A stretch of 64,000 nucleotides of DNA, from the NCBI RefSeq assembly GCF_029266855.1, contig NZ_JAQSWB010000010.1, forward strand, positions 1 to 64,000, in the 5' to 3' direction. The DNA comes from Fluviicola sp. (GTDB taxonomy: Bacteria > Bacteroidota > Bacteroidia > Flavobacteriales_D > Crocinitomicaceae). This document shows, in pieces, positions 20,934 to 58,043 of the stretch (position 1 is the first letter of the stretch; each line of letters begins with the position of its first letter). A program made the position numbers and the translations under genes. The notes under the pieces were generated by a model. The model did no database searches and was not told the origin of the DNA. It worked only from the letters and a program-made list of their open reading frames with translations.

Positions 20934-20990
20934 AGACAAAAAGACGAAAGACAAGAGACTCTAAAATCTCTTGTCTTATGTCTGAAGTCT
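20934..20990. repeat. inverted AGACNNN heptamer array in the rpsB-tsf spacer
   Basis: Units of 7 bp beginning AGAC run rightward (AGACAAAA at 20934 with one extra base, AGACGAA, AGACAAG, AGACTCT to 20962). After AAAATCT they return as NNNGTCT units (CTTGTCT 20970, TATGTCT 20977, GAAGTCT 20984-20990). The core AGACAAGAGA/TCTCTTGTCT is a perfect 10-bp stem. The same periodic unit flanks the four-helix-bundle gene near 56.4-56.9 kb. There is no T-run adjacent to the core stem, so it does not look like a standard terminator. Confidence 0.8.
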
Positions 20991-28432: not shown

Positions 28433-28550
28433 AACCATATATGGTTAAATACGTCACTTGAATGTTAAATTCATATACAAACGTCGCTATATCTATGCTT
28501 CATTCATGCTATATCCATACTTCATCTATACTTGAAACGTATATGACCCT
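28433..28550. repeat. intergenic repeats and palindrome after the DUF2891 gene
   Basis: A perfect 14-bp palindrome AACCATATATGGTT (28433-28446) is followed by two imperfect direct copies spaced 22 bp, TATATCTATGCTTCAT (28488-28503) and TATATCCATACTTCAT (28510-28525). They lie between the inverted arms TCATATAC (about 28471-28478) and GTATATGA (about 28539-28546). No ORF is supported in this 285-bp gap, which ends in the terminator of the leucine-rich-repeat gene. Confidence 0.55.
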
Positions 28551-53991: not shown

Positions 53992-56397
53992 ATGAACAGA
54001 CACATTAAAAAAGTGGCCATTTTAGGATCGGGAGTTATGGGATCCAGAATTGCCTGTCACTTTGCCAATGTCGGATGTGAAGTTCTGCTTCTTGACATCC
54101 TTCCGAAAGAACCCAATGATGCTGAAAAAGCAAAAGGACTCACGATTGAAAGTAAACCCGTGAGAAACCGCATAGTGAACGAAGCGCTTCAGTTCGCTTT
54201 AACGTCCAACCCTTCTCCTATTTACCTGAAGTCATTTGCTTCCCGCATTCAAACCGGGAATTTTGAAGATGACATGCCAAAAATTGCGGAGGTAGACTGG
54301 ATCATTGAAGTGGTAATTGAGCGCCTGGATATCAAACAACAGGTATTTACCAACGTGGAAAAATTCCGGAAACCCGGAACACTTATTTCTACGAACACAT
54401 CCGGAATCCCGATTCATCTGATGCTGGACGGAAGATCTGACGACTTTAAAAAACATTTTGCAGGAACTCACTTCTTTAATCCGCCAAGATATTTGCCTTT
54501 ACTGGAAGTGATCCCAACAAAAGATACTGCGCCTGAAATCATTGATTTCTATATGACGTTCGGATCCAAAATTCTTGGAAAGAAAACGGTTTTATGTAAA
54601 GACACTCCTGCTTTTATAGCAAACAGGGTTGGTGTTTACAGCATCATGGCTTTGTTCCATGCAGTCGAGGAAATGGATCTGAGCATTGAAGAAGTCGACA
54701 AATTAACCGGTCCTGTTTTGGGAAGACCTAAATCGGCCACTTTCCGCACCTGTGATGTGGTAGGTCTGGACACACTGGTTCACGTAGCGAATGGTTTGAA
54801 AGAAAATTGCCCGGATGACGAGGAAAGAGCATTGTTCGAAGTTCCTTCTTTCGTGAAGAAAATGGTCGAGAATAACTGGCTTGGAAGTAAGACAAAACAA
54901 GGATTCTTTAAGAAAACGGTGGATGCGGAAGGCAAAAAAGTTTTTCTCGCTTTGAATTTAAAGACCATGGAATACGAACCGAGCAAAAAGGTTTCTTTCC
55001 CTACTCTTGAAATGACAAAGGCGATTGATGATTTGGAACAACGCACCAAAATGTTATTCGCCGGAATGGATAAAGCAGGAGAATTTTACCGCAAAACATT
55101 CGGTGGACTATTTGCTTACGTTACGAACAGAATTCCGGAAATCTCAGAAGATCTTTATAAAATCGATGATGCTATCAAGGCCGGATTCGGATGGGAACTG
55201 GGTCCTTTTGAAACCTGGGATATTTTAGGTTTCAAACAAGGAAAAGAATTAGCGGAAAAAGCAGGAAAAAAATTACCGGCATGGGTTGGTGAAATGGAAG
55301 CTGCCGGGTTTACCAGTTTCTATAAAACGGAAAATGGAAAACGTTTATATTATAATCAGAACAGCAAATCTTACGAAATCATTCCGGGAACAGAAGAATT
55401 GGTTTCTCTTCAAGCCTTAAGAGTATCCAATAAAGTTTGGGGGAATTCAGATGCAACCTTAGTTGATCTTGGAGATGGAATCCTGAACCTTGAATTCCAT
55501 ACAAAAATGAACACTATTGGCGGGGGTGTGATTGAAGGAATCAACAAATCCATTGAACTTGCAGAGAAAGAATACAAAGGATTGGTGATATCCAATACCG
55601 GCGGGAACTTTTCTGCGGGAGCAAATGTCGGTATGATCTTCATGATGGCAGTCGAACAGGATTACGACGAATTGAATTTTGCTGTAAAAGCCTTCCAGGA
55701 CACAATGATGCGCGTCCGATATTCAAATATCCCTGTAATTGTGGCTCCACACAACATGGCTTTAGGCGGTGGATGTGAATTGTCCATGCATTCGGATAAG
55801 GTTGTGGCTCATGCGGAGCTTTACATGGGCTTGGTTGAATTTGGTGTAGGCCTGATTCCGGGTGGCGGAGGTTCCAAAGAATTCGCAAAGCGATTTTCAG
55901 AAGAACTGAAAGACGGCGATATCAAGATCAACAGATTGCGTGAGCGTTTCCTTTCAATCGGGCAAGCAAAAGTTTCGACTTCTGCCTACGAAGCATTTGA
56001 TCTGGGCTATTTACGACCGGGAACGGATGAAGTAGTTGTTTCCCGCGAATATCAACTGACTAGAGCAAAAGCTGCAGCATTGGAACTGGCAAACAAAGGA
56101 TATATCGCTCCGAAAAGAGAAAAGAACATCACTGTCCTCGGGCAGGAAGGACTCGGGATCATTTATGTCGGGGCAAACTCTATGAAATCCGGGCACTACA
56201 TGTCGGAACACGACCAGGTAATTTCAGAAAAACTGGGTTGGGTCATGTGCGGCGGCGACTTAAGCGAGAACACGGTTGTTTCGGAACAATACTTATTGGA
56301 TCTGGAACGAAAAGCATTCGTGGAATTATGTCAGCAGCGTAAAACCCTGGAACGATTGGAGAGTTTGGTGAAATCGGGGAAGATTTTGAGGAACTAG
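53992..56397 (+). CDS. fadN: 3-hydroxyacyl-CoA dehydrogenase/enoyl-CoA hydratase fusion
   Basis: 801 residues in FadN order. The dehydrogenase comes first: Rossmann motif AILGSGVMGSRIA near residue 10, THFFNPPRYLPLLEVIP, then two HCDH domains to about residue 430. The crotonase domain follows (about 470-700) with GNFSAGANVGMIF, MALGGGCELSMHSD and VEFGVGLIPGGGGSKEF. It does the hydration and oxidation steps of beta-oxidation. It is separated from fadA by the four-helix-bundle gene and its repeat arrays. Confidence 0.92.
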   Translation: MNRHIKKVAILGSGVMGSRIACHFANVGCEVLLLDILPKEPNDAEKAKGLTIESKPVRNRIVNEALQFALTSNPSPIYLKSFASRIQTGNFEDDMPKIAEVDWIIEVVIERLDIKQQVFTNVEKFRKPGTLISTNTSGIPIHLMLDGRSDDFKKHFAGTHFFNPPRYLPLLEVIPTKDTAPEIIDFYMTFGSKILGKKTVLCKDTPAFIANRVGVYSIMALFHAVEEMDLSIEEVDKLTGPVLGRPKSATFRTCDVVGLDTLVHVANGLKENCPDDEERALFEVPSFVKKMVENNWLGSKTKQGFFKKTVDAEGKKVFLALNLKTMEYEPSKKVSFPTLEMTKAIDDLEQRTKMLFAGMDKAGEFYRKTFGGLFAYVTNRIPEISEDLYKIDDAIKAGFGWELGPFETWDILGFKQGKELAEKAGKKLPAWVGEMEAAGFTSFYKTENGKRLYYNQNSKSYEIIPGTEELVSLQALRVSNKVWGNSDATLVDLGDGILNLEFHTKMNTIGGGVIEGINKSIELAEKEYKGLVISNTGGNFSAGANVGMIFMMAVEQDYDELNFAVKAFQDTMMRVRYSNIPVIVAPHNMALGGGCELSMHSDKVVAHAELYMGLVEFGVGLIPGGGGSKEFAKRFSEELKDGDIKINRLRERFLSIGQAKVSTSAYEAFDLGYLRPGTDEVVVSREYQLTRAKAAALELANKGYIAPKREKNITVLGQEGLGIIYVGANSMKSGHYMSEHDQVISEKLGWVMCGGDLSENTVVSEQYLLDLERKAFVELCQQRKTLERLESLVKSGKILRN

Positions 56398-56399
56398 AA

Positions 56400-56434
56400 A
56401 GACAATAGACCTAAGACAGTAGACTAAAGACTAA
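56400..56434 (+). repeat. left AGACNNN heptamer array
   Basis: Five tandem 7-bp units: AGACAAT, AGACCTA, AGACAGT, AGACTAA, AGACTAA (56400-56434). They begin 2 bp after the fadN stop and end 5 bp before the start of the four-helix-bundle gene. The right array (56823-56850) has the same unit inverted, so the two could pair in RNA and loop the gene out. Confidence 0.8.
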
Positions 56435-56439
56435 AAAGT

Positions 56440-56790
56440 ATGTTGAAGCATAATTTTAGAAAACTAGAAATTTGGATTCAAGCAATGAACATCGTAAAGG
56501 AGATTTATGAGATTATTGCTCAGTTTCCAGTTGATGAGCGTTTCGGATTAAAATCTCAAATGTCACGTTGCGCTGTTTCTGTTCCATCAAATATTGCAGA
56601 AGGCAGCAGTCGTAGTTCAATCAAAGAATTTTCATATTTTTTGGATATTGCCTTAGGTTCCAGTTTCGAATTGGAAACACAATTGATTCTTGCTCAAGAG
56701 TTATTTAATCTTGAAACCAATTTGACTATTGAAAAATGTCAGAATTTACAACGGATGATAATCGGATTCAAACAAAAAATCAATAATTAA
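56440..56790 (+). CDS. four-helix-bundle protein of the S23/IVP family
   Basis: 116 residues. The family signature is clear: RKLEIWIQAMNIVKEIYEI, QMSRCAVSVPSNIAEGSSR and EFSYFLDIALGSSFELETQL. The family includes proteins encoded by intervening sequences in 23S rRNA genes of Leptospira and others, and is related in fold to Avd of diversity-generating retroelements. The biochemical function is unknown; nucleic-acid binding is likely from the basic face. It interrupts fadN-fadA and is bounded on both sides by inverted 7-bp repeat arrays, suggesting an inserted element. Confidence 0.9.
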   Translation: MLKHNFRKLEIWIQAMNIVKEIYEIIAQFPVDERFGLKSQMSRCAVSVPSNIAEGSSRSSIKEFSYFLDIALGSSFELETQLILAQELFNLETNLTIEKCQNLQRMIIGFKQKINN

Positions 56791-56798
56791 AGATCACG

Positions 56799-56850
56799 AG
56801 ACTAAGATAAAAGAAGCTTATCAAAGTCTTTTGTCTTAAGTCTTAAGTCT
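56799..56850. repeat. right inverted heptamer array and hairpin
   Basis: Four tandem units NNNGTCT: AAAGTCT, TTTGTCT, TAAGTCT, TAAGTCT (56823-56850), i.e. AGACNNN on the minus strand. A local hairpin AGACTAAGATAA (56799-56810) with TTATCAAAGTCT (56818-56829), 10 of 12 paired, sits at its left end. The array ends 15 bp before the fadA ATG. Confidence 0.78.
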
Positions 56851-56864
56851 CAAAATCCTAAAAA

Positions 56865-58043
56865 ATGAGTAAAGCATATATCGTAGCGGGATTCCGCTCA
56901 GCAGTAGGAAAAGCAGGAAAAGGAGGATTTCGGTTCTTCCGTCCTGATGATTTGGCGGCTCGTGTGATTGAGCACCTGGTAGCCAGTGTTCCGCAAGTAG
57001 AAAAAACACGTATCGACGATGTAATTGTCGGGAATGCGACTCCTGAAGCGGAGCAAGGATTAAATGTTGGCCGCCTGATTTCCCTGATGGGATTGAAAAC
57101 GGACAAGGTTCCGGGGATGACAGTCAACCGTTATTGTTCGTCGGGGCTGGAAACCATTGCACTGGCACAGGCAAAAATAGAAGCCGGAATGGCTGATTGC
57201 ATCATTGCAGGCGGAGTGGAATCCATGTCGGTCATGGCGATGGGAGGCTGGAGAATTGTTCCGAATCCGAAAGTGGGAAAAGAAAACCCGACCTGGTACT
57301 GGGGAATGGGATTAACTGCCGAAGCCGTTGCAACGCAATTCAAAGTAAGCAGAGAAGATCAGGACATCTTCTCCCTCAAATCACACGAAAAGGCCTTAAA
57401 AGCGATCGCTGAAGGAAAATTCAAGGAAGATATCGTTCCCATTGAAGTGGAAAACATCTTCCTGGATGAAAACGAGAAAAGACAAGTCAAAAAATATATT
57501 GTGGATACAGACGAAGGACCGAGAGCTTCCACGATTGAAGGATTGGCCAAATTACGTCCGGTATTTGACGCAATGGGAAGTGTAACTGCAGGGAATTCTT
57601 CTCAAACATCAGACGGAGCTGCTTTCGTAATGGTGATGTCAGAAAAAATGGTGAAAGAATTAAATATCGAACCGATTGCCCGTTTGGTAAGTTATGCCGT
57701 TGTTGGTGTAGAACCGCGAATCATGGGAATCGGTCCGGTAGACGCTATTCCGAAAGCATTGAAACAAGCTGGAATGAGTTTGAACGACATCAACTTATTT
57801 GAGCTGAATGAAGCATTTGCATCACAATCGTTAGCTGTCATTCGCGAAGTTGGTTTAAACCCGGATATCGTAAATGTAAATGGCGGAGCAATCGCCTTGG
57901 GTCACCCACTTGGTTGTACCGGAGCAAAACTCACTGTTCAGATGATCAATGAATTGCGCAGACGAAATCAAAAATACGGAGTCGTTACCATGTGCGTGGG
58001 GACGGGACAAGGTGCGGCCGGTGTGATAGAGTTGTTGAAATAA
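56865..58043 (+). CDS. fadA: acetyl-CoA C-acyltransferase (3-ketoacyl-CoA thiolase)
   Basis: 392 residues. The nucleophile is Cys91 in VNRYCSSGLETIAL. His347 is in GGAIALGHPLGCTGAKL and the acid/base Cys377 in TMCVGTGQGAAGV. It cleaves 3-ketoacyl-CoA with CoA, the last step of the cycle started by FadN. An acyl-CoA dehydrogenase gene, often third in this operon, does not follow; the operon ends at a strong terminator. Confidence 0.95.
   Translation: MSKAYIVAGFRSAVGKAGKGGFRFFRPDDLAARVIEHLVASVPQVEKTRIDDVIVGNATPEAEQGLNVGRLISLMGLKTDKVPGMTVNRYCSSGLETIALAQAKIEAGMADCIIAGGVESMSVMAMGGWRIVPNPKVGKENPTWYWGMGLTAEAVATQFKVSREDQDIFSLKSHEKALKAIAEGKFKEDIVPIEVENIFLDENEKRQVKKYIVDTDEGPRASTIEGLAKLRPVFDAMGSVTAGNSSQTSDGAAFVMVMSEKMVKELNIEPIARLVSYAVVGVEPRIMGIGPVDAIPKALKQAGMSLNDINLFELNEAFASQSLAVIREVGLNPDIVNVNGGAIALGHPLGCTGAKLTVQMINELRRRNQKYGVVTMCVGTGQGAAGVIELLK

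Follow-up and report, generated by a model that had tools for sequence, protein, structure and literature searches.

Introduction

A close described counterpart of the element analysed here is the intervening sequence (IVS) of 23S rRNA that carries an S23p open reading frame, as in Coxiella and Leptospira (Warrier et al. 2016, PMC4990558). In that account, too, a reading frame of this family sits between complementary arms, has a sporadic distribution, and occupies a transcribed site where the interruption is tolerated. The same paper gives the function of the S23 family as not known and describes the S23 protein of Xanthomonas as a homopentameric ring. A second group of relatives consists of tandem 7-bp repeats, namely the cyanobacterial STRR, whose function is stated to be still not known (PMC2670836) and which, to judge by the title of Vioque 1997, also occur within the gene for RNase P RNA; the GGGAATC heptads of Xanthomonas, two genomes of which have 70 and 75 convergent pairs, and the GGGGAYT heptamers of Nostoc (Rehm et al. 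2015, PMC4692102); and the TAACTGA repeats, for which the source reports no evident transfer mechanism (MacGregor 2015, PMC4679880). There is no agreed role for such heptamer arrays, whether in Cyanobacteria, in Xanthomonas or elsewhere. A third relative is the REPIN/RAYT system, in which gene-less hairpins are dispersed through the genome, a gene is associated with the repeat, and each group has its own protein (Bertels and Rainey 2011, PMC3116915).

Here we analyse a locus that resembles all three, in a stretch of 64,000 nucleotides of Fluviicola sp. DNA that we call the window. With the heptamer arrays, as those sources describe them, it shares tandem 7-bp units, intergenic and often between co-directional genes. 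It is unlike the rRNA IVS in that its host is an mRNA spacer, each arm repeats a short degenerate unit in tandem, and gene-less hairpins are dispersed elsewhere. It is unlike the arrays of Rehm et al. and MacGregor, whose texts discuss quadruplex or translational roles and do not mention S23, in that here the array goes with a protein gene and has a motif linked to the clade of that protein. Unlike REPIN/RAYT, it has an S23 four-helix bundle in place of a Y1 tyrosine transposase, its repeats are tandem heptads, and it encodes no movement chemistry. Our analysis suggests, as a reading that we hold to be rather probable, an IVS-like unit, made of a gene and its cognate arms, that has spread among transcribed spacers, has REPIN-like derivatives, and encodes a protein that recognises its own array. 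The IVS, STRR and REPIN components are known; the combination, together with the link between clade and motif, appears to be new, and a search of full-text literature, with subscription journals and preprints outside its scope, gave no link between an S23 gene and a heptamer array among the matches listed.

Results

The upstream host gene is a fadN-type 3-hydroxyacyl-CoA dehydrogenase/crotonase fusion of 801 aa (53992..56397, + strand), the label fadN being taken from the preliminary description of the window; its best model matches at E 7.8e-181, yet under that model's cut-off. The TAG stop at 56395-56397 nearly touches the left (5') array (56400..56431, + strand), which consists of five AGACNNN units with AGAC at 56400, 56407, 56414, 56421 and 56428. 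The four-helix-bundle gene of 116 aa follows at 56440..56790 (+ strand), and after it comes the right (3') array (56826..56850), whose four units read AGACNNN on the - strand and GTCT on the + strand, at 56826, 56833, 56840 and 56847. Downstream lies a fadA-type thiolase of 392 aa (56865..58043, + strand), over the cut-off of TIGR01930; 50 of the 59 genomes, this one counted, have a match to it at E ≤ 1e-150. Both arrays were read directly, found independently by Tandem Repeats Finder, and recovered in the genome pattern count. The preliminary description had reported five tandem units from 2 bp past the fadN stop and an exact 7-bp period across nine units, and both statements agree with the coordinates and with Tandem Repeats Finder; its four inverted units are also there, but the gap before fadA, given as 15 bp, is 14 bp to the ATG at 56865.

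The arms form an imperfect inverted repeat in which the match is confined to the AGAC/GTCT cores. It had been proposed that they could pair in the transcript, and in the predicted RNA fold they do so, in both the minimum-energy and the centroid structure (z -3.2). The arms are thus predicted to form a stem around the reading frame like those of an IVS, through the core tetramers only, at a location between fadN- and fadA-type genes rather than inside an rRNA gene. No known RNA family appeared in an Rfam search of 56300-56950 at E 0.1, and a phage search gave no match at E 1e-4; a single-sequence search of genome contigs returned one locus, in Flavobacteriales bacterium UBA7666.

The encoded protein belongs, as had been suggested, to the S23 / 23S rRNA-IVP family found in 23S rRNA intervening sequences, with matches above the curated cut-offs to both PF05635 (E 2e-32, 112 bits, cut-off 33.8) and TIGR02436 (E 4.8e-31, 107 bits, cut-off 24). 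Its AlphaFold model has a pLDDT of 96, and the nearest solved structures in a fold search are the S23 proteins 2gsc (five chains) and 2rld, with Avd (4dwl) after them. By homology with the Xanthomonas ring, the protein is probably pentameric. Against the orthologue in relative G007, dN is 0.095 and dS 1.54, which indicates that selection maintains the protein; purifying selection is shown for this one measurable pair, with saturation in most of the others. Among the six copies in this genome one, L006 (G000:C1:902861-903064), is broken by two in-frame TGA codons, and 8-bp-type repeats can be seen by eye in its flank.

Could such an element be moved by an enzyme encoded elsewhere? A transposase or reverse transcriptase would then mobilise it by taking the arrays as ends, and the four-helix protein would be an accessory like Avd of the diversity-generating retroelements (DGRs). 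Avd indeed has the same fold, since 4dwl and the DGR complexes 8ub7, 8ub8 and 8ube are matched with probability 1.00, if at weak E-values of 0.08-0.25, and the Avd sequence model finds the protein weakly (E 1.1e-4), at 22 bits far below its cut-off of 80. The 116-aa frame itself matches no known nuclease, and this genome holds one weak Y1_Tnp match (E 7.4e-7). However, in searches that covered the RVT_1 and Y1_Tnp families, neither this genome nor G002, G009, G011 and G017 gave an RVT_1 match, so that the reverse transcriptase of a DGR was not found here, and no Y1_Tnp match was obtained in the array-bearing genomes G012, G018 and G031. RAYT genes, moreover, have flanks of their own, with heptad-type arrays at 1 of 21 loci. 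We consider mobilisation from elsewhere decidedly unlikely. Two specific routes were tried and set aside: that by reverse transcriptase, PF00078 occurring in 24 of 59 genomes and being absent here, and that by RAYT, PF01797 occurring in 40 of 59 with the one weak match here, being absent from the same three array-bearing genomes, and rarely having heptad arrays at its loci.

The preliminary description supposed a spreading element that inserts into mRNA spacers, for which other copies should be found in related genomes, and these turn out to be abundant. PF05635 is represented by 6 copies in this genome, in 51 of the 59 genomes in the search of relatives (this genome counted), and in 298 of the 395 Bacteroidota genomes that were sampled. 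At 88 of 161 loci, 146 from Bacteroidota and 15 from cyanobacterial plasmids, chosen mainly by best score and not at random, the flanks match each other in inverted orientation; they usually take the form of arrays with a period of 7 or 8, and the site is often an operon spacer. Our main set comprises 96 loci, 6 of this genome and 90 of relatives, mainly better-scoring matches. There a periodicity score of at least 16/21 was reached upstream at 45 and downstream at 49 loci, compared with 21 of 960 dinucleotide shuffles and 3 of 31 other gaps in those loci; the score undercounts AGACNNN arrays, in which four of seven positions are fixed. The dominant periods are 7, 8 and 14. The two arms of one locus matched (at least 15/18) in inverted orientation at 53 of 96 loci and in direct orientation at 14 of 96, and arms of different loci matched in 25 of 760 comparisons. 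Inverted, direct and cross-locus matches were 17/30, 2/30 and 9/293 in a phylum-wide set of 30 loci, and 9/15, 2/15 and 18/210 in the cyanobacterial set, which draws 15 plasmid loci from 26 records with a hit; additional loci of relatives, scored for the inverted orientation, gave 9 of 20. The association thus recurs in two phyla, a period-7/8 array being present on at least one side in 14 of the 15 cyanobacterial loci, among which L274 has no arrays and L271 has arms that are direct instead of inverted. Among the phylum-wide loci, 20 of 30 were searched for known RNA families, and none was found at gathering score.

Two sets of control loci are almost free of arrays. Around rpsB, inverted flanks occur at 0 of 29 loci and arrays at 0 of 29 upstream and 2 of 29 downstream; around RAYT genes (21 of 30 loci used, the others being clipped or short-flanked), arrays occur at 1 of 21 upstream and 0 of 21 downstream. 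RAYT loci do have inverted flanks in 8 of 21 cases, and direct ones in 4 of 21, from their own REPs, so that inverted flanks by themselves are not the signature. Nor is the gene at our locus a REP-associated Y1 transposase: it is of PF05635, and the RAYT flanks differ from its own.

At 70 of 94 loci the gene is in sense orientation to both neighbours, at 13 antisense to both, and at 11 mixed. This predominance of the sense orientation would be consistent with expression from the host operon, and we count the 13 antisense copies against our main reading. Host spacers include sdhA-sdhB (L065) and sufB-sufC (L069), other loci being assigned by eye from having the same protein ends as these. On cyanobacterial plasmids the gene and its arrays lie, as annotated, within cas operons at three loci (L271, L273, L278), twice between cas6 and cas4 and once between cas10 and cmr3, where the four-helix gene might be taken for a cas gene.

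The motif of the array differs from locus to locus, and includes AGACNNN, TTAGGAYN, AATKNNN, TTAGNNN, GTGAATA, GGTAGTTT and others in Bacteroidota, with AGGGAAC, AGTAGGG and AGTCAGA in Cyanobacteria; names such as AATKNNN and TTAGNNN are summaries by eye. When loci are placed in protein-tree order, related proteins have a common motif, though many of them stand beside different genes. We quantified this for 81 of 95 loci with an array score of at least 14 on some side, taking pairs from different gene contexts. Arrays were similar in 43% of pairs with at least 55% protein identity (n=30), in 15% at 45-55% (n=195), and in 5%, 3% and 3% in the lower identity bins (n=894, 1014 and 598); the Mantel correlation between array and protein was r 0.157, with 0 of 2000 permutations as high, statistics in which the pairs of loci are not independent of one another. 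For pairs inside one genome, array similarity was at background, and in the fadN-fadA spacer itself different protein clades have different arrays. Judged by these sequence comparisons, the motif tracks the protein clade rather than the genome or the position. Joint travel of gene and arms, reading of the array by the protein, or the two together would lead one to expect such a link, and the first can account for it in place of binding.

Within this genome (G000, 4.30 Mb), the pattern AGACNNNAGACNNNAGAC of three exact AGACNNN units occurs 91 times, which we grouped into 17 separate sites, and the backward pattern 0 times; the AGAC arrays are thus not due to chance. Ten of the 17 sites have two arms, all ten ordered AGAC then GTCT. 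The gene is absent from 16 of the 17, nine of which are two-armed compact hairpins in gene spacers. These are dispersed gene-less inverted doublets like those of REPINs, and the units are tandem, intergenic and dispersed, like STRR-type heptamers. One such hairpin, with three units per arm, occupies the rpsB-tsf spacer of the window (20942..20990), with an RNA fold z of -5.0 and -4.6 on the two strands; over eight folds of seven gene-less elements (rpsB-tsf on both strands), z ranges from -3.5 to -6.2. Across the ten two-armed sites the NNN triplets of the two arms are complementary at 19 of 60 positions, no higher than the mean of 0.36 for re-paired arms, which indicates that the conserved part is the core. 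A pure hairpin reading was therefore rejected, as stem stability alone is insufficient to explain the arrays. There are also long arrays of a single orientation, with 23 units at C1:314551 and 29 units at C1:900423. Arrays with an 11-bp period, different from that of the 7-bp element, were noticed in spacers as well, for example TCAAGTATGGG and ATCTATGCTTC, at 28507 of the window and at L209:17600, L210:3192 and L212:7596.

Across the sampled genomes, arrays away from the gene mostly go with its presence. Among 19 carriers, 54 of the 412 gaps sampled contained a period-7/8 array; the figure for 8 non-carriers was 1 of 141. One carrier, G053 (L202-L208), is rich in arrays, with 7-bp arrays of many motifs in 30 of 60 sampled spacers; without it the carriers show arrays in 24 of 352 gaps. 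A dispersed array matched a four-helix locus of its own genome in 30 of 54 cases, compared with 5% for other genomes. As good a match arose in 26 of 5000 permutations, and in 196 of 5000 without G053, in which 23 of 30 dispersed arrays match its own four-helix loci; with 20 fewer loci the match was 20 of 54, with 135 of 5000 permutations as good. The link of dispersed arrays to own-genome genes leans heavily on this array-rich genome. The four-unit AGAC pattern occurs in 20 of 59 genomes and in 0 of the 8 genomes that have no gene, the backward control giving 6 matches in four genomes. There are exceptions, which weigh against our main reading: 9 of the 19 carrier genomes have no period-7/8 array in their sampled gaps, and G037, with nine gene copies, nonetheless has 1 such array in 55.

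These counts bear on a neutral account, by which slippage grows the arrays, template switching inverts the arms, and the genes merely occupy tolerant spacers. Slippage probably does act, as the single-orientation arrays of 23 and 29 units would suggest. However, such an account sits poorly with a period of 7 or 8 common to many unrelated motifs, with a motif that follows the protein clade across gene contexts, with the difference between carriers and non-carriers, and with the nearly array-free rpsB and RAYT controls. It is already disfavoured, and we regard it as very improbable.

What do the orthologous spacers of relatives look like? For fadN-fadA we compared 30 loci, of this genome and 29 relatives. 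The four-helix gene is present at 13; G011 has a gene-less AGAC hairpin of 65 bp; in five (G006, G008, G016, G030, G053) the spacer measures 2-29 bp, and in five more it was not delimited. Gene and arrays are hence not a universal feature of this spacer, as they should not be for the kind of element that had been supposed. Where the spacer contains the gene, fadN ends in TAG at 7 of 13 loci; where it does not, at 0 of 12 (Fisher p 0.005), counted by hand after five loci were dropped (three with the fadN end unlocated, one without an anchor and one without upstream sequence). At L147, L148 and L152, the fadN-fadA loci of G013, G012 and G002, we noticed a G+C-rich palindrome of CCCCCTTT type, apparently another small repeat family.

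At rpsB-tsf, among 30 genomes, the AGAC hairpin occurs in 3 (G000, G005, G004) and a spacer of 10-34 bp in 18; seven close relatives have an unrelated spacer of 67-69 bp, and G030 and G033 have others of 74 and 62 bp. With such unrelated spacers in close relatives, the idea of one clean insertion was abandoned, and the history is better described as turnover than as a single clean event. The PNP-gatB spacer, 86 bp in this genome, is filled by an AGAC hairpin. Among 13 loci (five with another upstream neighbour and two unanchored; two further loci, of G003, lie outside this set), AGAC hairpins are found in G000 and G013, 8-bp-type hairpins in G012 and G005, and a spacer of 24 bp in G010. Like an IS or a MITE, the element has inverted arms; the unfilled spacers of relatives are too divergent to give an exact insertion point. 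Of the supposition of a spreading element, the abundance of copies elsewhere, many with inverted arrays, and the absence of the gene from many fadN-fadA spacers thus stand, but neither movement nor a target-site duplication was seen at the orthologous spacers compared, given their divergence. The idea of a spreading, IVS-like element is supported in good part, though within a wider association of S23 proteins with heptamer arrays, in which the AGAC motif is not confined to the fad genes.

The same spacers help to weigh a regulatory system, in which the protein would bind heptad arrays in untranslated RNA and act on its own operon and on other array-bearing operons by controlling stability or translation, the arrays having spread by ordinary selection and recombination. 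Several observations would be in its favour. By mechanical ORFs, 12 of the 17 AGAC sites (one of the 12 being uncertain) have co-directional genes on their two sides, and some arrays enter core operons such as rpsB-tsf and sdhA-sdhB; the protein is under purifying selection; its structural relatives include, at weak E-values, Avd of the DGR ribonucleoprotein; and translational control has been proposed for heptamer repeats by MacGregor (PMC4679880). A conserved regulon, on the other hand, should not be missing its arrays from the orthologous spacers of close relatives, and different arrays in one spacer of congeners, as at PNP-gatB, would be odd for it. Arrays are also kept where no cognate gene was found: in the AGAC-rich genomes G013, G012 and G008, no AGAC-flanked gene appeared among the copies examined (4 of 5, 3 of 5 and 2 of 3), which weighs on our main reading too. 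We think such a regulatory system unlikely.

Discussion

More generally, we propose that the element consists of an S23-type gene between two convergent arrays with a unit of 7 bp (7 or 8 bp in other copies), and that gene and arms would enter transcribed spacers as one unit, mostly in sense orientation, the reading frame then being carried in the mRNA of the host operon. In the transcript, the arms would come together as a bubbled stem whose loop contains the reading frame, as in a 23S rRNA IVS, and on our proposal this pairing is what would let the insertion be tolerated inside an operon; it could also shield the host mRNA. Gene-less hairpins of like arrays would be the non-autonomous relatives of this unit.

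How could motif and protein clade come to change together? In our proposal the protein, pentameric by homology, would recognise the tetramer or pentamer core of its own array, met every 7-8 nt, and the motif would change with the clade for that reason. A natural picture would be a ring whose subunits meet a unit every 7-8 nt. With the match between the arms confined to the cores, the protein would presumably recognise the core either in double-stranded DNA or in an RNA stem with bubbles; for a reader of single strands, mirrored arms should be superfluous. The binding of protein to array is suggested by the link between clade and motif and by the fold, whose relatives work in complexes with RNA. 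The route of movement, for an element that encodes no known recombinase, is something that we infer, as is any cleavage of the RNA.

As a broader and more tentative proposal, one that we would sooner doubt than assert, these loci could represent a new class of element, in which pentameric S23-type proteins read a core of 4-5 nt every 7-8 nt on paired arms, in clade-specific fashion, and by this means gene and arrays, with gene-less hairpins in trans, colonise transcribed spacers of Bacteroidota and Cyanobacteria. The rRNA IVS, the cyanobacterial STRR and the GGGAATC arrays of Xanthomonas would then be forms of it. The clade-specific link gives a concrete hypothesis for S23 proteins and heptamer arrays alike, namely that the protein acts on the array. 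It makes of the pairs of protein and motif a swappable set, and suggests how an element without a recombinase of its own might spread. A direct prediction of a link to arrays concerns XCC0516, the best-matching solved protein, which comes from the species of the GGGAATC arrays. For annotators, it is a warning that four-helix genes interrupt conserved operons, cas operons included.

One subclade of the family is free of arrays, which counts against our main reading: L004, L136, L138, L377, L378, L379, L383 and L386 are below the array threshold on both sides. Six of these eight loci share a 3.3-kb stretch with a tRNA-Leu gene, with four different anticodons, as if another kind of landing site were used there.
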